Assembly (NCBI RefSeq): GCF_003024685.1
Contig: NZ_PYLQ01000015.1
Coordinates: forward strand, 422 to 64,421
Direction of reading: 5' to 3'
From: Faecalibacillus intestinalis
GTDB lineage: Bacteria > Bacillota_I > Bacilli_A > Erysipelotrichales > Coprobacillaceae
DNA: 64,000 nt
Below, one piece after another: positions 14,576 through 53,590 of this stretch; position 1 is the stretch's first letter, and each line of letters opens with the position of its first letter. The position numbers were made by a program, and so were the translations under genes. Under the pieces are notes generated by a model, which was not told the DNA's origin, did no database searches, and was given only the letters and a program-made list of their open reading frames with translations.

Positions 14576-15865
14576 TTACTTTTGATTTTCTTTATTTAAT
14601 TCCAAAGTATCTATTTTTTTAATAAATGGTAAATAAATAACAAAAGATACAACAATCATCACAAATTGCCATAATGCGACACGCCATCCACCAATCAAAA
14701 GTCCTGATATAATTGGTGGTGTTGTCCAAGGAACCATAACCCCGCTAAATAATGGTAAAATTCCCATATACATTAATAAGTAGCTACTTATACCTATAAT
14801 TAAAGGAACAAGAACAAATGGAATTAATAAATATATATTAAGTACAATTGGTGTCCCAAAAATAATTGGTTCATTAATGTTAAAGATATTAGGTACAATG
14901 GATAATTTACCTAAGCTACGTAATGACTTTGATTTGGCAAAAAATGTAATATAAATCACTAACCCAATCACAATTCCAGCACCAGACATGCATAAGAAAT
15001 TGTCCCAAAATTGTTGTGTAAAAATATGTCCACCATTTTGAATTGTAAGAGGCAATCCTGAATCTATAATTTTTTGATTAGCTGCCATATTTGCTTGTAA
15101 AATCGGTGAAAGAATTCCTCCACATATAGAACCACCATGGACGCCTGTCCACCATAATAAAGACATAACAACTGTCATAATAATAACACCAAAGAACGAA
15201 TCTGTAATTCCTTGTAAAGGAATTTGAATTACCGAATAAATAAGTTCTGCAAATGTTGTATTAAATATAAAGTGACATATAGCATAAATAATTGCACAAA
15301 TAGTAATAATAATTCCAGTTGGTAATAGTGACGAAAATGAATCTGCAACACCACTAGGCACACCATTTGGCATTTTAATGCTAATATCTTTTTTTACACA
15401 TAAAGAATAAATATATCCAACTAAAAAACCAATTAAAATAGCACAAATCATTCCTTGACCAGCAGTCCAATCTTTAGAAATAATTCCTGTAACTGATTCC
15501 CCACTGTCTAATACCTTAGAAGATGGAGTTAATAAAATAAAAGCTGCTAAACCAGTTAAAGCGCCATTTATAGCTGTTATTACTTGATCATTCTTCAAAT
15601 AAGAATAAGTAATTCCTATTACTGTAAAGAAGGCCATTAATGAAAACGTAGAAGAATATACTTGAGAACATACATCTCCTATTCCACTTTCACTAATTAC
15701 TTTACTTACTGATTCAATTGGTAAGTTGGCAATCAACAGGAACAATGATCCTATCATTAAAAACGGTAAAGAAAACATCATTCCATCCTTTAAAGCCTTT
15801 ATAACTTTTGTATTTGTAAACTTCGATATATAAATAACTAATGTTTCATTTATAAATTTGTTCAT
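14576..15865 (-). CDS. PTS sugar transporter subunit IIC, cellobiose/beta-glucoside type
   Basis: This 429-aa membrane permease is of the lactose/cellobiose (Lac) PTS family. It has ten or so hydrophobic segments, the family N-terminus (KALKDGMMFSLPFLMIGSLFLLIANLP) and the substrate-region motif NINEPIIFGTPIVLNIYLLIPF. It imports and phosphorylates a beta-glucoside only together with IIA and IIB proteins, which are not encoded nearby and so must be supplied from elsewhere. It is the last gene of the rpiR-GH1-IIC operon, 12 bp after the GH1 gene. Confidence 0.9.
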   Translation of the reverse strand: MNKFINETLVIYISKFTNTKVIKALKDGMMFSLPFLMIGSLFLLIANLPIESVSKVISESGIGDVCSQVYSSTFSLMAFFTVIGITYSYLKNDQVITAINGALTGLAAFILLTPSSKVLDSGESVTGIISKDWTAGQGMICAILIGFLVGYIYSLCVKKDISIKMPNGVPSGVADSFSSLLPTGIIITICAIIYAICHFIFNTTFAELIYSVIQIPLQGITDSFFGVIIMTVVMSLLWWTGVHGGSICGGILSPILQANMAANQKIIDSGLPLTIQNGGHIFTQQFWDNFLCMSGAGIVIGLVIYITFFAKSKSLRSLGKLSIVPNIFNINEPIIFGTPIVLNIYLLIPFVLVPLIIGISSYLLMYMGILPLFSGVMVPWTTPPIISGLLIGGWRVALWQFVMIVVSFVIYLPFIKKIDTLELNKENQK

Positions 15866-15877
15866 ATTATTTATCTC

Positions 15878-18126
<2,249 letters not shown>

Positions 18127-18253
18127 ATTTCCTCTTTTCACCGGTTAAAAGATACAAATTAATTATCTTCTTATCTAGAAGACATCTTCATCATAATTAA
18201 CAACAACTTGTAAGTCAATCTTCTGTAAGCATTTACAATCAAATCGAAAAAAG

Positions 18254-18460: not shown

Positions 18461-19390
18461 CTATTTTTTTGTCCATTTTTCAAATTCTTCATCAGTAGCT
18501 AAAACATAATGAGTTCCATCTACTAAATGTTCAGTACCTTTTGTATAATCGACTCCACTTTCTTTATAATCATAAGTAAATGATTTACGTACTTTTTCTA
18601 CACGTGGATTAGGATGAGGAATAGCACTTAATAATGATTTTGTGTATGGATGAATTGGATTATCAAAGATTTCTTCAGTAGTTCCTGTTTCTACTAAATG
18701 TCCTAGGTGTAATACCCCAATCTTATCACTAATATATTTAACCATTGATAAGTCATGAGCAATGAATAAATAAGCAATTCCTGTTTCTTTTTGAATCTTT
18801 TTCATTAAGTTAACAACTTGCGCTTGAATAGAAACGTCTAACGCTGAAATAGCTTCATCAGCAATAATTAAATCAGGATTCATAATTAAAGCTCTGGCAA
18901 TTCCAATACGTTGTCTTTGTCCACCTGAGAATTGATGTGGATAACGTGAAGCATGTTCTCTTGATAAACCAACAAGTTCAAGCATTTCATAGATTTTTTC
19001 ATTTCTTTCTTCAATAGATGAATAAGATTTATGAATATCTAAACCTTGACCAATGATATCAATAACTTTCTTTCTTGGATTTAAACAAGCCATTGGATCT
19101 TGGAAAATCATTTGCATCTTTGTATGTAATTCTTTAGATGTTTCCTTATTTAATTTTCCACCAATTTCTTTTCCGTTGAAAACAATTGATCCAGAAGTTG
19201 GTTTATATAAACGAATAATACTTCTACCAGTAGTTGATTTACCTGAACCAGATTCACCTACCAAACCATAAGTTTCACCTGGCATAATATCAAAGGAAAT
19301 ACCATCTACCGCTTTTACAGTAAAGTTACGATTAATTTTAAAATGTTGTTTTAAATCTTTAACGACAAGGATAGGTTCTTTCTTTTCCAT
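18461..19390 (-). CDS. oppF: Oligopeptide ABC transporter ATPase OppF
   Basis: This 309-aa ATPase of the peptide importer has Walker A GESGSGKST (about 44-52), Q-loop MIFQDPMACLNPRK, signature FSGGQRQR, Walker B LIIADEAISALD and switch His (FIAHDLS). The C-terminal oligopeptide extension (NPIHPYTKSLLSAIPHPNP) is present. It works with OppD on the cytosolic face of OppBC. It is the last gene of oppA-B-C-D-F, and its start overlaps the oppD stop by one base. Confidence 0.95.
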   Translation of the reverse strand: MEKKEPILVVKDLKQHFKINRNFTVKAVDGISFDIMPGETYGLVGESGSGKSTTGRSIIRLYKPTSGSIVFNGKEIGGKLNKETSKELHTKMQMIFQDPMACLNPRKKVIDIIGQGLDIHKSYSSIEERNEKIYEMLELVGLSREHASRYPHQFSGGQRQRIGIARALIMNPDLIIADEAISALDVSIQAQVVNLMKKIQKETGIAYLFIAHDLSMVKYISDKIGVLHLGHLVETGTTEEIFDNPIHPYTKSLLSAIPHPNPRVEKVRKSFTYDYKESGVDYTKGTEHLVDGTHYVLATDEEFEKWTKK

Positions 19391-20475
19391 TATTCAACAC
19401 CCTCCTTTTTCATTTTTTCTAATCTGTTTTTTAATTCAGTTGGCATTTCAACCTTAGGTGCTTTTTCATGCATTAACCATGAAGCAACTTTATGAGTTGT
19501 ACTACCAGGTACTTTAAACATTGGTGGTTCAAGTCTTAAATCAATATTTAAAGCATATTTATTACGTGGAGCAAAAGCATCACCTTTTACTTCATGTGCT
19601 AAGTTTGGTGGAGTACCTGGGATTGTATATAATTCATCATCATCTGTATCTAAATCAGGCATAGATGAAAGTAATCCCCAAGTATATGGATGACGTGGAT
19701 CATAGAAAATTTCATCAATTGTTCCAGTTTCTACGATTTTACCAGCGTACATAACATTTACATAATCAGCTACTTTAGCAACAACACCTAAGTCATGTGT
19801 GATATAAATAACTGATAAATCTTTTTTCTTTTGAATATCTTGAATTAATTCAAGAATTTTAGCTTGGATAGTAACATCCAATGCAGTTGTAGGTTCATCA
19901 CAAATCAAAACATAAGGATCACAAGATAAAGCAATTGCGATAACAATTCTTTGTCTCATCCCACCAGATAATTGGTGAGGATAGTTTTTCATACGTTTTT
20001 CAGCATTAGTAATACCTACTAATTGTAATAATTCAACTGCTTTTTTATAAGCTTCTTCTTTTGGTGTATTGTAATGATGAATCATTGGTTCCATGATTTG
20101 ATTTCCAATTGTCATTGTAGGGTTTAATGATGTCATTGGATCTTGGAAAACCATTGCAATCTTACGACCACGGATTTCGCTTTGCATTTCTTTTTCACTT
20201 AATTGACAAATGTCTTTTGTGATTCTTTCACCTGTATTCTCATCTGTCCAAGTGTAGTTAATAGAACCACCATCAATTGAACCATTTCCAGCCATGATAC
20301 CCATAATTGCTTTAGTAGTAACTGACTTACCTGATCCAGATTCACCAACGATAGCAATTGTTTCACCTCTATATAAATCTAAGTTAACACCACGAATTGC
20401 ATTAACAGTTCCACTATCAGTTTTAAAAGAGATATTTAAATCTCTGACTTCTAATATTTTTTCTCTTTCTGCCAT
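19390..20475 (-). CDS. oppD: Oligopeptide ABC transporter ATPase OppD
   Basis: This 361-aa ATPase has Walker A GESGSGKSV, MVFQDPMTSLNPTM, signature LSGGMRQR, Walker B VLICDEPTTALD and switch His (YITHDLG). The C-terminal region DPRHPYTWGLLSSMPD and PGTPPNL is typical of OppD, though the cysteines of the Fe-S type tail are absent. An insertion after the first strands (about residues 66-95, TDENTGERITKD) is also usual in OppD. It lies two bases after oppC. Confidence 0.95.
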   Translation of the reverse strand: MAEREKILEVRDLNISFKTDSGTVNAIRGVNLDLYRGETIAIVGESGSGKSVTTKAIMGIMAGNGSIDGGSINYTWTDENTGERITKDICQLSEKEMQSEIRGRKIAMVFQDPMTSLNPTMTIGNQIMEPMIHHYNTPKEEAYKKAVELLQLVGITNAEKRMKNYPHQLSGGMRQRIVIAIALSCDPYVLICDEPTTALDVTIQAKILELIQDIQKKKDLSVIYITHDLGVVAKVADYVNVMYAGKIVETGTIDEIFYDPRHPYTWGLLSSMPDLDTDDDELYTIPGTPPNLAHEVKGDAFAPRNKYALNIDLRLEPPMFKVPGSTTHKVASWLMHEKAPKVEMPTELKNRLEKMKKEGVE

Positions 20476-20477
20476 AA

Positions 20478-21410
20478 TTACATCTCCTTCATAGTTGGAT
20501 CAAGTGCATCACGAAGTCCATCACCAAATAAGTTGAAACTTAACATTAAGATAGAGAAAATAATAACTGGAATTACCATCATGTAAGGGTAAATAGTAAT
20601 TGAGTTAAATCCATCATTAATTAATGTACCTAATGAAGCCATTGGAATTGGTAAACCTAAACCAACGAAAGACAAGTATGCTTCATAGAAGATAGCATTT
20701 GGAATAGACATCATAATCATAATAATCATTTGACTATAAATATTTGGTAAAATTTCTTTAAAGATAATAAATAAGTTACTAGCTCCTAAAGTACGTGAAG
20801 CTAAAACGAATTCTTCTTCTTTTACTCTTAAAACTTGAGCTCTTGTAATACGTGACATACCAATCCATTCAGTAAATGATAAAGCCATGATAATTGTGAA
20901 TAATGATGCTTTCATCACCATTAATAACAATGTTAATATTACTAAAGTTGGGATAGAGTTTATGATTTCTTGAATTCTTTGCATTACTGAATCAACTTTA
21001 CCTCCGAAATAACCAGAGATAAGTCCATATGTCATACCTACAATCACGTCAATGAAGATTGCGACTACAGCAATAAATAATGAATATCTTGTACCTGTCC
21101 AAACACGTACAAATAAATCACGCCCATAAGTGTCTGTACCAAAGAAATGTTCAGCACATGGCGAAATACTTGCAATTTTTGTATTGATTGCATCAAATTT
21201 ATATGATGAAAACATTGGTGCAAAAATTGCAAATACTGCGATAACTAAAATACAAATTAAACCGATAACGGCACCTTTATTCTTTTTAAAACGATTTAAA
21301 GAATCTTTCCAAGCAGGAAGTGATGGAGCAACAACGTCTTTAGTAATGTCTTGTTTATCTCCAACGAATTCAAAATCGTCTGGCAAAAATTCAATCTTTT
21401 CTAAATCCAT
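20478..21410 (-). CDS. oppC: Oligopeptide ABC transporter permease OppC
   Basis: This 310-aa permease has a cytosolic N-terminal tail (about 35 residues), six membrane segments and the EAA loop EFVLASRTLGASNLFIIFKEILPN near 200-225. It keeps the OppC feature FGTDTYGRDLFVRVWTGTRYSL. It forms the membrane channel with OppB. It lies two bases after oppB. Confidence 0.95.
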   Translation of the reverse strand: MDLEKIEFLPDDFEFVGDKQDITKDVVAPSLPAWKDSLNRFKKNKGAVIGLICILVIAVFAIFAPMFSSYKFDAINTKIASISPCAEHFFGTDTYGRDLFVRVWTGTRYSLFIAVVAIFIDVIVGMTYGLISGYFGGKVDSVMQRIQEIINSIPTLVILTLLLMVMKASLFTIIMALSFTEWIGMSRITRAQVLRVKEEEFVLASRTLGASNLFIIFKEILPNIYSQMIIMIMMSIPNAIFYEAYLSFVGLGLPIPMASLGTLINDGFNSITIYPYMMVIPVIIFSILMLSFNLFGDGLRDALDPTMKEM

Positions 21411-21412
21411 TA

Positions 21413-22357
21413 TTAATCATCCTTTCCTAATCTAATTCTTGGATCAATAATTCCATAAGAAATATCAATAATTAACATCATGAAAATGTACATTGCAGCA
21501 TATAAGAATGAACAAGCTAAAATGATGTTGTAATCATTTGATAAAATACTATTAATTAATAATTTACCTAATCCAGGAACAGAACAAATCTTTTCAACAA
21601 CCATAGTACCTGTCATTAAGTTAACTAAGATAGGTCCTAAAATTGTAATAACTGGAATTAAAGCATTACGTAAAGCATGTTTGAAAATTAAAGTTTTACG
21701 ATCTAATCCTTTTGCTTTAGCAAGCGTCATATATTCACTTGTTAAAACTGATACCATTTCAGTACGAGTAAAACGTGCAACGTTTGCAATAACACCAACA
21801 GATAAAGCTAAAATTGGCATAATTGAAGAACGTACAGCATTTGAAGAACTGTATGAAGTTGGTAATAAACGTAATTTAGATGCAAATAATAATAAAATTA
21901 ACATTGCAAATACGAATGATGGGATTGAAACCCCAATTACTGAGATTACTGTAGCAATTGTATCCCAAATTGTATTTTTATGTAATGCAGCAAATACCCC
22001 TAAGAACATACCAATAACTGTTCCAATAATAACTGCACATAAACCATAAATCATAGATAATTTTGCAGCACTTCCTACTAAAGAAGATACTTGCATATCT
22101 TTGTATAAGTTAAATGATACCCCGAAATCCCCTGTTAACATATTTTGAATATAACGTACGAATTGAACCGGAATTGGTTGATCCAATCCATATTGTGCTT
22201 CAATAGCAGCTCTGGCTGAAACACTTAATTTTTCATTGTTAATTGGAGAACCTGGTAAAAATTTAACCATTAAAAATAATACCATTAAAATAACGAATAA
22301 AGTAATTAACGAAATAACTAAACGTTTTCCGATATATTTTAAGGTTGAATTACTCAT
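21413..22357 (-). CDS. oppB: Oligopeptide ABC transporter permease OppB
   Basis: This 314-aa permease starts with a hydrophobic helix. It has the OppB-typical QYGLDQPIPVQFVRYIQNMLTGDFGVSF periplasm-side loop and the EAA loop EYMTLAKAKGLDRKTLIFKHALRNALIPV. The C-terminus DPRIRLG is diagnostic of the family. It is the second gene of the operon, behind oppA and separated from it by a hairpin that probably reduces transcription of the membrane parts relative to the binding protein. Confidence 0.95.
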   Translation of the reverse strand: MSNSTLKYIGKRLVISLITLFVILMVLFLMVKFLPGSPINNEKLSVSARAAIEAQYGLDQPIPVQFVRYIQNMLTGDFGVSFNLYKDMQVSSLVGSAAKLSMIYGLCAVIIGTVIGMFLGVFAALHKNTIWDTIATVISVIGVSIPSFVFAMLILLLFASKLRLLPTSYSSSNAVRSSIMPILALSVGVIANVARFTRTEMVSVLTSEYMTLAKAKGLDRKTLIFKHALRNALIPVITILGPILVNLMTGTMVVEKICSVPGLGKLLINSILSNDYNIILACSFLYAAMYIFMMLIIDISYGIIDPRIRLGKDD

Positions 22358-22445: not shown

Positions 22446-24065
22446 CTATTTTGATACATATTCGAATGTATATGGAACACCAACTGGTTTAATACCTAAG
22501 TTTTTAACTTTTGTATTTTGTAAAGTAGCAGTTCCTTTTTCGAATACTGGGATGTAACATAAATCATCCATCATAATTTTTTCTGCATCGATCATTAATT
22601 GCCAACGAGCATTAGCATCAGTTTCACTGCTAACTTTTCCCATGATTGAATCATACTCAGCATTTGACCAATGACCATAGTTGTTATTGTTGTCAGTTAA
22701 AGCTAATGTTAAGTAAGTTGTAGGATCACCATAGTCAGGTCCCCAACGAGTTACTGATAAATCGAAATCTCCTTTCTTTTGTTTATTGTAGATACGATCT
22801 TGTTTAGTAGTAGCAACCATTTCAATTTTTAATCCTTTTAAGCTAGAGAAAGCGTTTTGTAAATAAGTTGCAAATACATCCATTGGAGATTCATCTGTAC
22901 CATAAGTTAATCTTAAAGTAATTTCAGATTTTCCTAATTCTTTTAATCCTTCATCTAAAGCAGCTTGTGCAGCTTTTTTGTTATATGAAGTATATGTTGC
23001 AGCTTCATCACGGAAATCTTTTCCTTCTGGAGAAATTGATAATCCTGAAGGTACGAAACCTTTAGCAGCTTGTGAACCGTCTTTTAATACGTTTTCACAT
23101 AAATCTTTTCTGTTGATAGCTAATGATAAAGCTTTTCTTACATTTAAGTTAGCTAAATCAGCATTTTCTAAGTTTGGTTGAACGTAGAATAAGAATCCTT
23201 CAGAAATATTTTTGAATGATTCATCTTTTTTGTATTTATCAACTAAGTCAGAGTTGATAATAGCGAAATCAGTTTCACCTGCTTCAAAAGCTTGAGCAGC
23301 AACTTTTGGTTCTTGAACTAATTTCATCACTAATTTGTCGATTTTTACATCTTTAGCAGCATAGAATTTATCATTTTTTTCGAATTCAGCTACTGAACCT
23401 GGTTCCCATTTTGTCATAGTGAAAGCACCGTTACCTAAAATAGAATCAGCACTCTTACCATATTTATCACCTTGTTTTTCACAGAATTTTTGGTTAATTG
23501 GATAGAAACATGGGAATGACATTAATTCATCAAAGAACGAAACTCTTGTAGTTGTAGTAATTTCTAACGTTTTGTCGTCTACAGCTTTTACCCCTAATTT
23601 GTTTAAGTCTTCATCAGTTAAATCTTGTTCTGCATCGATTTTATCTGATAATTCTTGAGCACCTGCGATGCTAGCAATACCATCGCAGAACATGTAATAG
23701 TAGTTTCCTTTCTTTTTGAAAATTCTTTGCCATGCATAAACGAAATCGTTTGCTGTCACAGCATCACCATTAGACCATTTAGCATCTCTTAATTTATAAG
23801 TGTGTGTTAAACCGTCTTCTGAAACTTCTGAAGATTTAGCAATACCATATGTAGTAGTACCATCTTTAGCAGGTTTCATTAGCCCATCAATAATTGCATG
23901 TAATGCAGTAAATGAGCATCCGTCATCGGCATCTGATGAGTCTAAATTTTTGATATCTAATTCACTTGAATAAGTGTAAGTAGATGAATCATCACTAGAT
24001 CCCCCACACCCAGCAAGAGTTAGAGCCATCATAGCACAAAGTACCATAGATAATAATTTTTTCAT
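22446..24065 (-). CDS. oppA: Oligopeptide-binding lipoprotein OppA, copy 1
   Basis: This 539-aa family 5 solute-binding lipoprotein (SBP_bac_5) has a signal peptide with lipobox LAGC (Cys20) and a Ser/Asp-rich linker. Typical motifs are SSELDIKNLDSSDADD at the mature N-terminus, YKLRDAKWSNGD, VNDFVYAWQRIF-type, and RWGPDYGDPTTYL near residue 430. It is anchored outside the membrane and hands peptides to OppBC. It is the first gene of the complete opp operon, with its own promoter (24135-24163). It shares a nearly identical approximately 235-nt stretch with copy 2, a sign of gene conversion. Confidence 0.94.
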   Translation of the reverse strand: MKKLLSMVLCAMMALTLAGCGGSSDDSSTYTYSSELDIKNLDSSDADDGCSFTALHAIIDGLMKPAKDGTTTYGIAKSSEVSEDGLTHTYKLRDAKWSNGDAVTANDFVYAWQRIFKKKGNYYYMFCDGIASIAGAQELSDKIDAEQDLTDEDLNKLGVKAVDDKTLEITTTTRVSFFDELMSFPCFYPINQKFCEKQGDKYGKSADSILGNGAFTMTKWEPGSVAEFEKNDKFYAAKDVKIDKLVMKLVQEPKVAAQAFEAGETDFAIINSDLVDKYKKDESFKNISEGFLFYVQPNLENADLANLNVRKALSLAINRKDLCENVLKDGSQAAKGFVPSGLSISPEGKDFRDEAATYTSYNKKAAQAALDEGLKELGKSEITLRLTYGTDESPMDVFATYLQNAFSSLKGLKIEMVATTKQDRIYNKQKKGDFDLSVTRWGPDYGDPTTYLTLALTDNNNNYGHWSNAEYDSIMGKVSSETDANARWQLMIDAEKIMMDDLCYIPVFEKGTATLQNTKVKNLGIKPVGVPYTFEYVSK

Positions 24066-24093: not shown

Positions 24094-24103
24094 TTGTATA
24101 CAC
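24094..24103. promoter_or_regulatory. Operator-like palindrome in the oppA copy 1 leader
   Basis: TTGTATACAC matches the perfect palindrome TTGTATACAA at nine of ten positions. It lies 31 bp downstream of the -10 element and 28 bp before the start codon. Confidence 0.5.
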
Positions 24104-24134
24104 TAATACATATACAATAAAAATTTATGCTTTA

Positions 24135-24163
24135 ATATTAGTACAATGCGTTATAGAAGTCAA
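24135..24163 (-). promoter_or_regulatory. Sigma-A type promoter of oppA copy 1
   Basis: -35 TTGACT (24158-24163), a 17-bp gap, -10 TAATAT (24135-24140). The intergenic region 24066-24370 holds this promoter, two flanking palindromes and the hairpin following oppA copy 2. Confidence 0.75.
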
Positions 24164-24178
24164 CAAAAAAGACGAACT

Positions 24179-24188
24179 TTGTATACAA
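24179..24188. promoter_or_regulatory. Operator-like palindrome upstream of the oppA copy 1 promoter
   Basis: Perfect TTGTATACAA, 15 bp before the -35 element. A related imperfect site (TTGTTTATACAA) follows at 24199-24210. The same 15-bp distance is seen at oppA copy 2. Confidence 0.6.
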
Positions 24189-24325
24189 AATTGTATTATT
24201 GTTTATACAAAAAATATATTTTTCAATCTACATTCAAAAATAAAATAGAGCAATTGTTTTTTTTACATTTCATTTTGGTGTTTATATTAATTGGAAGACA
24301 ACATAATTTTTTATTCTTTTTTAAG

Positions 24326-24370
24326 AAGAAACACAATACCGAAATATTGTGTTTCTGTTGATTTTATCGA
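24326..24370 (-). terminator. Hairpin after oppA copy 2
   Basis: On the minus strand, GAAACACAATA and TATTGTGTTTC form an 11-bp stem with a 6-nt loop directly after the stop codon, followed by TTCTT and then A-rich sequence. The weak T-run means termination may be partial. Confidence 0.6.
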
Positions 24371-25993
24371 CTATTTTGATACATATTGGAATGTATATGG
24401 AACACCTACAGGTCTAATTACTAAACCTTTTACATCTTTATTTTGTAAAGTTGCAGTACCTTTTTCAAATACTGGGATGTAACATAAATCATCCATCATA
24501 ATTTTTTCTGCATCAATCATTTCTTGCCAACGAGTATTAGCATCAGATTCATTAGCAACTTTATCCATTAATGCATCTAATTCACTGTTTGTATATTTAC
24601 CGTAGTTGTTACCATTAGTAGAAATACCCATTGTTAAGTAAGTTGTAGGATCACCATAGTCAGGTCCCCAACGAGTTGTAGCTAAGTCATAATCACCATT
24701 TTTTTGTTTGTTGTAGATACGATCTTGTTTAGTAGTAGCTACCATTTCTACTTTAATACCATCTAATTTACTTAAAGCGTTTTGTAAATAAGTTGCAAAT
24801 ACATCCATTGGAGATTCATCTGTCCCATAAGTTAATCTTAAAGTAATTTCAGATTTTCCTAATTCTTTTAATCCTTCATCTAAAGCAGCTTGTGCAGCTT
24901 TTTTGTCATATGAAGTATATGTTGCAGCTTCATCACGGAAATCTTTTCCTTCTGGAGAAATTGATAATCCTGAAGGTACGAAACCTTTAGCAGCTTGTGA
25001 ACCGTCTTTTAAAACATTTTCACATAAGTCTTTTCTGTTGATTGCTAGTGAGATTGCTTTTCTTACATTTAAGTTAGCTAAATCACTATTTTGGAAGTTT
25101 ACTGAAATATAGAATAAGTAACCTTCATTAATTTGTTTGAATGAATCATCTTTTTTGTATTTATCAACTAAGTCTGAGTTGATTGGAGCAAAATCAGTTT
25201 CACCAGCTTCGAATGCTTGAGCAGCAACTTTTGGATCTTGAACTAATTTCATTACTAATTTGTCAATTTTAACTGTTTTAGCATCATAATATTTATCATT
25301 TTTTTCAAATTCAGCTACTGAACCTGGTTCCCAGTTTGTCATAGTGAAAGCACCATTTCCTAAAATAGTTTTAGCACTCTTACCATATTTATCACCTTGT
25401 TTTTCACAGAACTTTTCATTAATTGGATAGAAACATGGGAATGACATTAATTCATCAAAGAATGAAACACGAGTAGTTGTAGTAACTTCTAATGTTTTAT
25501 CATCGATAGCTTTAACACCCATTGCATCTAAATCTGCATCTGTAATATCTTCTTCATTGTCAATTTTATCTGACATTTCTTGTGCCCCTACAATACTTGC
25601 AATACCATCACAGAACATGTAGTAATATTGACCTTTCTTTTGGAAGATTCTATGCCAAGCATAAACGAAATCATTTGCAGTAACAGGATCACCGTTAGCC
25701 CATTTTGCATCTTTTCTGATTTTGTAAGTATGAGTTAACCCGTCATCTGAAACTTCAGAAGATGAAGCAACACCATTTACGACATTACCTTTCTTATCTG
25801 TTTTCATAAGCCCATCAATAACAGCATGCATTGCTGTAAATGAGCATCCGTCATCGGCATCTGATGAATCTAAGTTTTTGATATCTAATTCACTTGAGAA
25901 AGTGTAAGTAGATGAATCTCCTCCTGATCCCCCACAACCAGCAAGAGTTAGAGCCATCATAGCACAAAGCACCATTGATAATAGTTTTTTCAT
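24371..25993 (-). CDS. oppA: Oligopeptide-binding lipoprotein OppA, copy 2
   Basis: This 540-aa SBP_bac_5 lipoprotein is highly similar to copy 1 along its length. The signal peptide and lipobox (LAGC) are almost identical. The mature N-terminus is again SSELDIKNLDSSDADD, and RWGPDYGDPTTYL is present. Differences cluster in the ligand-contact half (for example NFQNSDLANLNVRKAIS and the C-terminal NGNNYGKYTNSELDALMDKV), so the two probably bind different peptides. It has its own promoter (26072-26100) and an ATG behind GAAGGGAAGAGAG. It may be read as a single-gene unit or run into the opp operon. Confidence 0.93.
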   Translation of the reverse strand: MKKLLSMVLCAMMALTLAGCGGSGGDSSTYTFSSELDIKNLDSSDADDGCSFTAMHAVIDGLMKTDKKGNVVNGVASSSEVSDDGLTHTYKIRKDAKWANGDPVTANDFVYAWHRIFQKKGQYYYMFCDGIASIVGAQEMSDKIDNEEDITDADLDAMGVKAIDDKTLEVTTTTRVSFFDELMSFPCFYPINEKFCEKQGDKYGKSAKTILGNGAFTMTNWEPGSVAEFEKNDKYYDAKTVKIDKLVMKLVQDPKVAAQAFEAGETDFAPINSDLVDKYKKDDSFKQINEGYLFYISVNFQNSDLANLNVRKAISLAINRKDLCENVLKDGSQAAKGFVPSGLSISPEGKDFRDEAATYTSYDKKAAQAALDEGLKELGKSEITLRLTYGTDESPMDVFATYLQNALSKLDGIKVEMVATTKQDRIYNKQKNGDYDLATTRWGPDYGDPTTYLTMGISTNGNNYGKYTNSELDALMDKVANESDANTRWQEMIDAEKIMMDDLCYIPVFEKGTATLQNKDVKGLVIRPVGVPYTFQYVSK

Positions 25994-26041
25994 ATTCTCT
26001 CTTCCCTTCTTAAATTATCTTTTGTGCAATAAATCGACATA

Positions 26042-26051
26042 TTGTATACAA
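26042..26051. promoter_or_regulatory. Operator-like palindrome downstream of the oppA copy 2 promoter
   Basis: Perfect TTGTATACAA, 20 bp downstream of the -10 element and 48 bp before the start codon. Confidence 0.6.
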
Positions 26052-26071
26052 TCTATCGATTTATTAACATC

Positions 26072-26100
26072 ATCATAGTTTATATAGGTTTAAAAGTCAA
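26072..26100 (-). promoter_or_regulatory. Sigma-A type promoter of oppA copy 2
   Basis: -35 TTGACT (26095-26100), a 17-bp gap, -10 TATGAT (26072-26077). The -35 is identical to that of copy 1. Confidence 0.75.
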
Positions 26101-26115
26101 TAGTTTTTTGTATAT

Positions 26116-26125
26116 TTGTATACAA
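26116..26125. promoter_or_regulatory. Operator-like palindrome upstream of the oppA copy 2 promoter
   Basis: Perfect TTGTATACAA, 15 bp before the -35 element, exactly as at copy 1. Confidence 0.6.
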
Positions 26126-26207: not shown

Positions 26208-27834
26208 TTATTCTGTTTTTTCTACATATTCAAAAGAAATTATACGACATGGTTTAATCACAAGATTTTTTACCTTCATATTTTGTAAAGTAGCAGCTCC
26301 TTTTTCAAAAACAGGAATACACGCATAATCATCTAATAATATCTTTTCTGCATTCTTCATTTCTTGCCAGCGCTTTTCAACATCTGATTCAACACCGACT
26401 TGATTTACAAGTTGATCATACTCACTATTTGCCCACTTGCCATAGTTATTACTATTCGTTGATAAAGCAATTGTTAGATATGTTGTTGGATCTCCATAAT
26501 CCGGTCCCCAACGTGTTACAGCTAAATCAAAATCACCATTTTTTTGTTTGTTGTAGATACGATCTTGTTTAGTAGTAGCTACCATTTCTACTTTAATACC
26601 ATCTAATTTACTTAAAGCATTTTGTAAATAAGTTGCAAATACATCCATTGGTGATTTATCTGTACCATAAGTAATTCTTAATGTAATTTCAGATTTTCCT
26701 AATTCTTTTAACCCTTCATTCAACAAATCTTGAGCTTGCGCCTTATCATAAAACGTAAAATCACCAGAATCTTTTCTAAAATCTACACCACATGGGCTTG
26801 TAGCTAAGCCTGAAGGAATAAATCCTTTAACAACTTGTGAACCATCTTTTAAAACATTTTCACATAAATATTTTCTATTAATAGCATATGAAATGGCTTT
26901 TCTTACATTTAAATTTGCAAGATCTTCATTTTTAAAATTTATTGAGATATAAAATAAAAAACCATCATAAACTTGTTTAAAAGAGTCATATTCTTTATAT
27001 TTATCAACTAAATCAGAATTAATTGGCGCATAATCTGTTTCACCTGCTTCAAAAGCTTGTGCAGCTACTTTAGGTTCTTGGACAAGTTTCATCACAAGTC
27101 TTTGAAGTTTTACATGTTTTTGATCATAATAGTTTTCATTTTTTTTAAATTCAGCTACTGATCCAGGTTCCAAATTAATCATCTTAAAAGCTCCATTACC
27201 TAAAATTGTTTTAGCACTTTTACCATATTTACTTCCTTGTTTTTCAGCAAATTTTTCATTAATTGGATAGAATGGTGGAAAAGCAAGCAATTCATCTAAA
27301 AACGAAACGCGTACTGTTGTTTTTACTTCTAATGTATAACCATCCAATGCTTTTACACCCATAGAATTTAAATCATCATCTGTAAGTTCTTCACCAGCGT
27401 CAATTTTATCTGATAATTCTTGTGCACCTTGAATGCTTGCTATACCATCTGCAAACATATAATAATAACTGCCTTTTTTCTTAAAGATTCTTTGCCATGC
27501 ATAAACAAAATCATGAGCTGTTACAAGATCACCATTATCCCATCTTACATCTTTTCTAAGTTTATAAGTATGAACTAATCCATCTTCTGAAACTTCTTCA
27601 CTTTTCGCAATACCATACGTAATATTTCCTTTTTTATCTGTTTTCATCAACCCATCAATAACAGCATGGATAGCACGCAATGGACATTGATCATCAGCAT
27701 CTGATGAATCTAAGTTTTTGATATCCAATTCACTTGAATACGTATAAGTCGAAATGTCATCTCCACTTGATCCACCACATCATGTTAATGTTAAAACCAT
27801 TAAACAATATAAAAAAATGAAAGTATTTTTTCAT
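26208..27834 (-). pseudogene. Third oppA copy with ruined signal peptide
   Basis: The 506-codon body from 27728 is a full SBP_bac_5 mature domain (ELDIKNLDSSDADD..., RWGPDYGDPTTYL, ending SFEYVEKTE). The natural start is an ATG at 27834 with GAAAGGAAAT. From there the frame is wrong by one base (probably a slip in the T-run at 27811-27817). In the correct frame the lipobox reads L-T-stop-C, because the Gly codon is TGA (27780-27782). Both lesions remove export and lipidation, so the gene is almost surely non-functional, although the remaining frame is intact. It is more diverged than copies 1 and 2, except for one 121-nt stretch. Confidence 0.85.
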
Positions 27835-47400: not shown

Positions 47401-47645
47401 AAAAAAGTCTCTTCATCCCATAAGGACGAAAGAGACCATCGCGTTACCACCTTACTTCGTTATTATTTCACAATAATAACCTTACTAAGTACCTACATAC
47501 TCATACACGTTAACGGGTGTTCCCGGAGATATCTACTTACTTCAATACTCTACTCCAAGAGGAATTCAATCATCAAACATAACTTTTTTTCACCAACCAA
47601 AAGCTCTCTACTTATGTTTTGATCATCTACTACTTCTTTTCACTG
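47401..47645 (-). ncRNA. T-box leader of aroE, probable Phe specifier
   Basis: The 373-bp gap between aroE and the surface-protein gene is mostly this leader. On the minus strand it has an AGTAGAGAG stem I element and an 11-bp apical stem (ATCAAA...CATAA with TTATGTTTGAT). The specifier GAA-TTC-CTC lies before TTGGAG, with TTC at 47562-47564. The T-box AAGGTGGTAACGCG (47440-47453) and the terminator arms GTCTCTTTCGTCC/GGATGAAGAGAC with six T complete it. TGGT in the T-box suits a tRNA with discriminator A, as in tRNA-Phe; tRNA-Trp (G73) would not match. Confidence 0.88.
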
Positions 47646-47656
47646 TATTTATTTGT

Positions 47657-53372: not shown

Positions 53373-53590
53373 AAAAAAAGTACCTTGAGAATATCAAAGT
53401 ACTTTACATACAAGATAGCTCTCCACTAAAAAGTGACAAGAAATTATATATTTTATAATTTCCCAGATAAATAACATTTGGTGCTGTTATTTTCTTCGGC
53501 ACGTTTCCCTTTCATTGTTGACTGTCACCAAACATTATCAACAATTACTCTTGATTCATGCACCTCTACCAATTCTTCTATTTTGTCTTT
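53373..53590 (-). ncRNA. Lysine riboswitch (L-box) with terminator
   Basis: On the minus strand the aptamer shows GGTAGAGGTGC near its 5' end and GAAAGGGAAACGTGCCGAAG. It then has a long P-type stem (GAAATTATAAAATATATAATTTC) and the closing TGTCAC...GTGGAGAGCTATC. The terminator AAAGTACTT, 10-nt loop, AAGGTACTTT and seven T (53373-53405) lies before the ribosome site. Lysine binding should terminate transcription of the NhaC-type gene. The rest of the 322-bp gap 53360-53681 is the promoter region of the M42 peptidase. Confidence 0.92.

Follow-up and report, generated by a model that had tools for sequence, protein, structure and literature searches.

A palindrome before two oppA genes of Faecalibacillus intestinalis and a probable amino-acid regulon of a GntR-type regulator in the Coprobacillaceae

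The palindromes that stand before two peptide-uptake genes of Faecalibacillus intestinalis very probably serve as binding sites in an amino-acid control circuit that extends over the genome. The shared architecture of the two promoters is real and larger than first reported: the earlier note saw just these two, and both are members of a genome-wide regulon that extends beyond oppA. A single GntR-type regulator, common throughout the Coprobacillaceae, most likely controls this regulon.

Paired palindromes at the oppA promoters

The opp genes are transcribed leftwards in the window (the whole 64-kb stretch of DNA analysed, whose coordinates are used here). The features are as follows, with promoter boxes read from the sequence.

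18461–22357, minus strand: oppB, oppC, oppD and oppF, downstream of oppA1; contiguous same-strand ORFs with roles assigned from sequence
22446–24065, minus strand: oppA1, peptide-binding lipoprotein; ATG at 24065, ORF with a lipobox, product 84% identical to OppA2
24094–24103, minus strand: predicted oppA1 downstream operator; GTGTATACAA, one mismatch with the inner TGTATACA intact, 31 bp after the -10
24135–24140, minus strand: oppA1 -10, TAATAT
24158–24163, minus strand: oppA1 -35, TTGACT; 15 bp from the operator and 17 bp to the -10
24179–24188, minus strand: predicted oppA1 upstream operator; perfect TTGTATACAA, predicted to lie at -61 to -52, conserved in the relatives G010 and G011
24371–25993, minus strand: oppA2, peptide-binding lipoprotein; ATG at 25993, best NCBIfam match the OppA model, below its equivalog cut-off
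26042–26051, minus strand: predicted oppA2 downstream operator; perfect TTGTATACAA, predicted to lie at +13 to +22, 20 bp after the -10, conserved in G010 and G011
26072–26077, minus strand: oppA2 -10, TATGAT
26095–26100, minus strand: oppA2 -35, TTGACT; 15 bp from the operator and 17 bp to the -10
26116–26125, minus strand: predicted oppA2 upstream operator; perfect TTGTATACAA, predicted to lie at -61 to -52, conserved in G010 and G011
26208–27830, minus strand: oppA3, a third copy, degenerate and lacking an operator; out-of-frame start and a TGA at the lipobox

The geometry described in the earlier note (TTGACT, a 17-bp gap and a palindrome exactly 15 bp upstream of the -35) is correct to the base at both promoters, and the second copy that it placed past the -10 is confirmed at 20 bp for oppA2 (perfect) and at 31 bp for oppA1 (one mismatch). 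A one-mismatch site also stands downstream of the oppA1 promoter in the relatives, as GTGTATACAA in G010 and ATGTATACAA in G011. Measured centre to centre, the two sites are 85 bp apart at oppA1 and 74 bp apart at oppA2 (approximately 8.1 and 7.0 turns); the 74-bp oppA2 spacing is constant across three genomes, in which that at oppA1 is 84–85 bp.

The perfect palindrome occurs three times in the window, compared with 0.28 expected, with all three copies at oppA1 and oppA2, and at least three perfect copies were reached in 0 of 100 shuffles of the window. When one mismatch is allowed, the seven sites found are at chance level (7.6 expected), and the perfect motif alone is therefore informative. 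The oppA1 and oppA2 genes are tandem copies with 84% identity, so their shared geometry could be a mere remnant of the duplication with no regulatory meaning. However, the two promoter sequences differ except in the operator, the -35 and the -10, such that spacer and flanks have diverged while operator, spacing and boxes are kept, and the operator also stands before many unrelated genes, including, again at 15 bp, the distant gene for a family-5 binding protein (SBP5, locus L005). A remnant of this type is contradicted by the genome-wide distribution described below, and we consider it extremely improbable.

Conservation before oppA homologues, which the earlier note had proposed as a check, holds for oppA1 and oppA2 in three Faecalibacillus genomes, and the 15-bp geometry is lost outside the genus. 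Only a downstream-type site is present before oppA in G013, G021 and L017, and most other genera lack any site; the predicted control of oppA is thus a genus-level feature and not a family-wide one. OppA2 of the home genome and its counterpart in Faecalibacillus faecis share 99% identity, and the intact oppA3 of a relative (L016) has TTGTATACAA 15 bp before its -35.

Several other features of the opp genes and their surroundings can be recorded. There are three tandem oppA copies in the home genome and four in G011 (G011:C127:27843-34991), where long near-identical blocks among the copies may reflect gene conversion, and one oppA copy of G010 has an internal TAA. Directly downstream of opp is a sugar cluster (14576–18141) with RpiR-type regulator, family-1 glycosidase-like and PTS EIIC-like genes. 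Further along the window there is a T-box leader (47419–47652, minus strand) with nothing obvious just downstream and a shikimate-dehydrogenase-like gene nearby, and a lysine riboswitch (53408–53576, minus strand) upstream of a gene for an Na+/H+ antiporter-like transporter.

Distribution of the palindrome in the genome and in relatives

The 2.79-Mb home genome contains 14 perfect copies of TTGTATACAA and 12 of the reversed palindrome used as a control, and the total is therefore not unusual. The locations are a different matter, since 13 of the 14 sites are found in promoters of genes for amino-acid or nitrogen metabolism or for the TCA branch: oppA1, oppA2 (two sites), the SBP5 gene, a PHP/histidinol-phosphatase (hisJ)-like gene, threonine synthase (thrC), a sodium:alanine symporter, aconitase (acn), hisZ, glutamate dehydrogenase (gdhA), serC, DAHP synthase (aroF) and citrate synthase (gltA). 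The one site outside this functional group (L001) is near a yqfD-like gene. Six of the eight control sites inspected are inside ORFs, and it is location, not number, that separates the palindrome from its control. The earlier note had allowed that the palindrome might be equally frequent in unrelated intergenic regions; genome-wide it is not spread there, and all sites but one are at functionally related promoters. A one-mismatch search of the genome was set aside as uninformative (226 sites, compared with 465 for the control).

The flanks of the 13 sites show a preference for A before the core and T after it, extending the motif to ATTGTATACAAT. Six of the promoters, those of thrC, the alanine symporter gene, acn, hisZ, serC and aroF, have the operator overlapping their -35/-10 region; those of gdhA and gltA are hard to define, which makes the operator position uncertain there. 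In two promoters a second layer of control accompanies the operator: the DAHP synthase gene has a T-box leader (L013, 1501–1768), and the alanine symporter gene has a tandem glycine riboswitch (L004, 1501–1698).

Across genomes, a perfect site is present in the gltA promoter of all 26 genomes read and in 23 of the 29 serC promoters read, the other six being without one. A density of approximately 13 sites per 2.6 Mb would predict a site in well under 1% of promoters; two acn loci (L107 and L129), four loci for gltA and one for serC were left out of the counts given here and below. The genus g19 has two-site promoters at gltA and serC. All eight of its acn promoters (L123–L128, L135 and L136) carry TTGTATGCAA in place of TTGTATACAA, and its gltA promoters keep perfect sites, often two. 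It counts against the proposed regulon that many perfect copies in other family genomes lie inside genes, five of 13 being so placed in G001.

A candidate GntR-type regulator

The likely gene of the cognate regulator is outside the window, in agreement with the earlier note; it is on another contig of the home genome (G000:C6:52187-52870) as the third gene of acn-icd-gntR (L079). In the relatives read, the site in the acn-icd-gntR promoter abuts the -10 in 28 of 28, with 20 perfect and eight in the TTGTATGCAA form, and where gntR stands alone a perfect site abuts its own -10 in four of four cases, a placement that would suit autoregulation. In G009 the sole perfect site in the genome is directly after the -10 of a GntR/FCD gene (L028). 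An orthologue of the regulator (54–73% identical) is present, one per genome, in 37 of 38 family genomes, and a search of the order found the regulator in 40 of 41 family genomes; no orthologue was found outside the family at E≤1e-40 among the 392 phylum genomes searched. The single family genome in which the regulator is missing (G014) likewise has no match to gltA or serC, and its four perfect sites equal the number of its control sites and represent no excess. In G034 (G034:C129:19514-20194) the regulator gene is broken by several in-frame stop codons and is either an assembly error or a pseudogene.

The sites could belong instead to another regulator, such as the RpiR-type gene (17278–18141), which adjoins the opp operon on the same strand, or another GntR paralogue, several distant GntR-domain proteins with weaker matches being encoded in the home genome. 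The RpiR gene abuts the family-1 glycosidase-like and PTS EIIC-like genes and has no perfect site before it, and we set it aside as part of the sugar cluster. Only the acn-linked GntR gene is conserved at one per genome with a site in front, and control by some other protein thus seems improbable.

The acn-linked protein has an N-terminal GntR winged helix-turn-helix (PF00392, E=3.4e-16) and a C-terminal FCD domain (PF07729, E=5.8e-29). The effector domains of GntR proteins of this type have six helices in the VanR group and seven in the FadR group. The predicted model (pLDDT 88) has six C-terminal helices (residues 81–105, 108–126, 130–146, 151–168, 175–193 and 197–226), and its Foldseek matches are McbR, Atu1419, PmiR and TM0439. 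The metal-ligand residues N137, H141, H185 and H207 are invariant in 14 sequences and align with Asn137, His141, His192 and His214 of Atu1419; R50, T51 and R54 are also invariant and align with its Arg45, Thr46 and Arg49. With these domains, six predicted helices, and an Asn plus three His, the regulator is likely to be a VanR-group FCD GntR protein. A short palindrome of the GT...AC type stands in its own and its predicted target promoters as a candidate binding site. The fold, the residues and the inner TGTATACA that are shared with Atu1419 lend support to recognition of TTGTATACAA by the acn-linked protein but do not prove it.

Proposed mechanism and comparison with known systems

We consider it probable that TTGTATACAA is the operator of a Coprobacillaceae amino-acid and carbon–nitrogen regulon under the VanR-group FCD GntR protein of acn-icd-gntR. 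Beyond what is observed (the motif, its positions and conservation, its co-occurrence with the regulator gene, and the domains and predicted fold of the protein), we infer binding of the motif by this protein, the sign of control, the effector and the loop. The protein would probably bind as a dimer at each palindrome, and its metal-containing FCD pocket would probably sense a small carboxylate. Most sites overlap the core promoter and their position therefore suggests repression, in which the regulator would cover the -35/-10 region of the amino-acid synthesis genes and of its own operon. At oppA1 and oppA2 it would occupy one site on each side of the promoter. Roadblock repression is the most likely role of the downstream site, and the upstream one, fixed at -61 to -52, most likely acts by contact with RNA polymerase or through the 74- or 85-bp loop.

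In four binding-protein promoters (oppA1, oppA2, the SBP5 gene and L016 oppA3) a 15-bp gap separates the upstream site from the -35. The site is at -61 to -52 in the first three of these, and such a position is limited to promoters of peptide-binding-protein genes. The earlier note had suggested repression by looping or by paired sites, and repression by DNA looping is plausible at oppA1 and oppA2, where the separations are close to whole numbers of turns and the spacing is kept, or varies by a single base pair, across three genomes; moreover, Atu1419, a tetramer, was observed to form DNA loops across a site spacing of 190 bp (PMC7797058). The SBP5 and L016 oppA3 promoters, however, have no second site even when two mismatches are allowed, and looping cannot explain the fixed upstream position in general; other site pairs are also not all in phase (38–39 bp at serC and 108 bp at gdhA). 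We regard looping at the two oppA promoters as possible, although somewhat doubtful. Another reading is that the same regulator activates peptide uptake from -61/-52 and represses synthesis at core promoters, providing a switch between scavenging and synthesis. The upstream position is identical in four binding-protein promoters, two of them without a second site, and the regions protected by CitO, an FCD GntR activator of Enterococcus faecalis, run from -65 to -41 and from -74 to -51 (PMC4746285). Yet these promoters have good -35 and -10 boxes and by sequence need no activator, and the extra downstream site at oppA1 and oppA2 is in a repressor position, so we hold activation to be rather unlikely. 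Direct contact with RNA polymerase, of either sign, fits all four binding-protein promoters.

As a first guess, the effector may be citrate or another TCA acid, given that the system is linked to acn, icd and gltA and that FCD proteins tend to sense carboxylates, as CitO senses citrate (PMC4746285).

CodY commonly serves related Bacillota as the global regulator of amino-acid metabolism, and its targets include peptide uptake, amino-acid synthesis and the TCA branch. The target types of the regulon described here resemble these, and CodY was the first guess at the regulator from regulon content, but the protein and the motif are unrelated, and no CodY domain (PF06018) scores over the cut-off in the 38 family genomes or in 265 genomes of the order (Erysipelotrichales), with positive controls detected; the order thus lacks CodY. 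We tentatively raise the possibility that this CodY-less family manages its amino acids through an FCD GntR protein of its own, which would sense an acid of the TCA cycle, repress synthesis genes at core-promoter sites and, from the fixed upstream site, drive or gate the uptake of peptides, as a carbon-acid-sensing replacement for CodY. In Bacillus subtilis CcpC responds to citrate and represses the genes for citrate synthase and aconitase, but it belongs to the LysR family and has a small regulon and a different site. GntR/FCD regulators usually control a single catabolic pathway.

In the open-licence literature we found no bacterial regulator for the exact motif and no account of such a regulon in Erysipelotrichales or Coprobacillaceae, and a search for TGTATACA with GntR gave Atu1419 as the sole lead. 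GdhR, a FadR-type GntR regulator of Neisseria, is similarly connected with gdhA, and 2-oxoglutarate affects its binding in meningococcus, but it has a 21-base FadR-type repeat operator and other targets, with no acn operon link reported (PMC6957213). CitO, which activates the citrate fermentation operons of E. faecalis, shares the FCD family, the metal-dependent carboxylate sensing predicted here and sites within -41 to -74, but it is an activator, and a link to amino-acid genes is not described (PMC4746285). Atu1419, a VanR-group FCD GntR protein of Agrobacterium fabrum, binds ATGTATACAT through Arg45 and has methylene-tetrahydrofolate as its effector (PMC7797058). The likeness extends to the fold, the wing-HTH contact residues, the Asn plus three His metal site (here predicted), a 10-bp palindrome whose inner 8 bases are identical, operators in or beside the -10/-35, and paired sites; Atu1419 differs in that it controls three hydroxycinnamate genes (PMC7797058), whereas approximately 12 amino-acid-metabolism promoters are concerned here. 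In common gut bacteria without CodY, one GntR/FCD protein appears to control genes for the uptake of peptides, the supply of glutamate and a number of amino-acid pathways. This offers an answer as to how amino-acid supply may be sensed in CodY-less Erysipelotrichales and provides a candidate gene, along with an operator of defined sequence and a list of targets, all open to direct testing.
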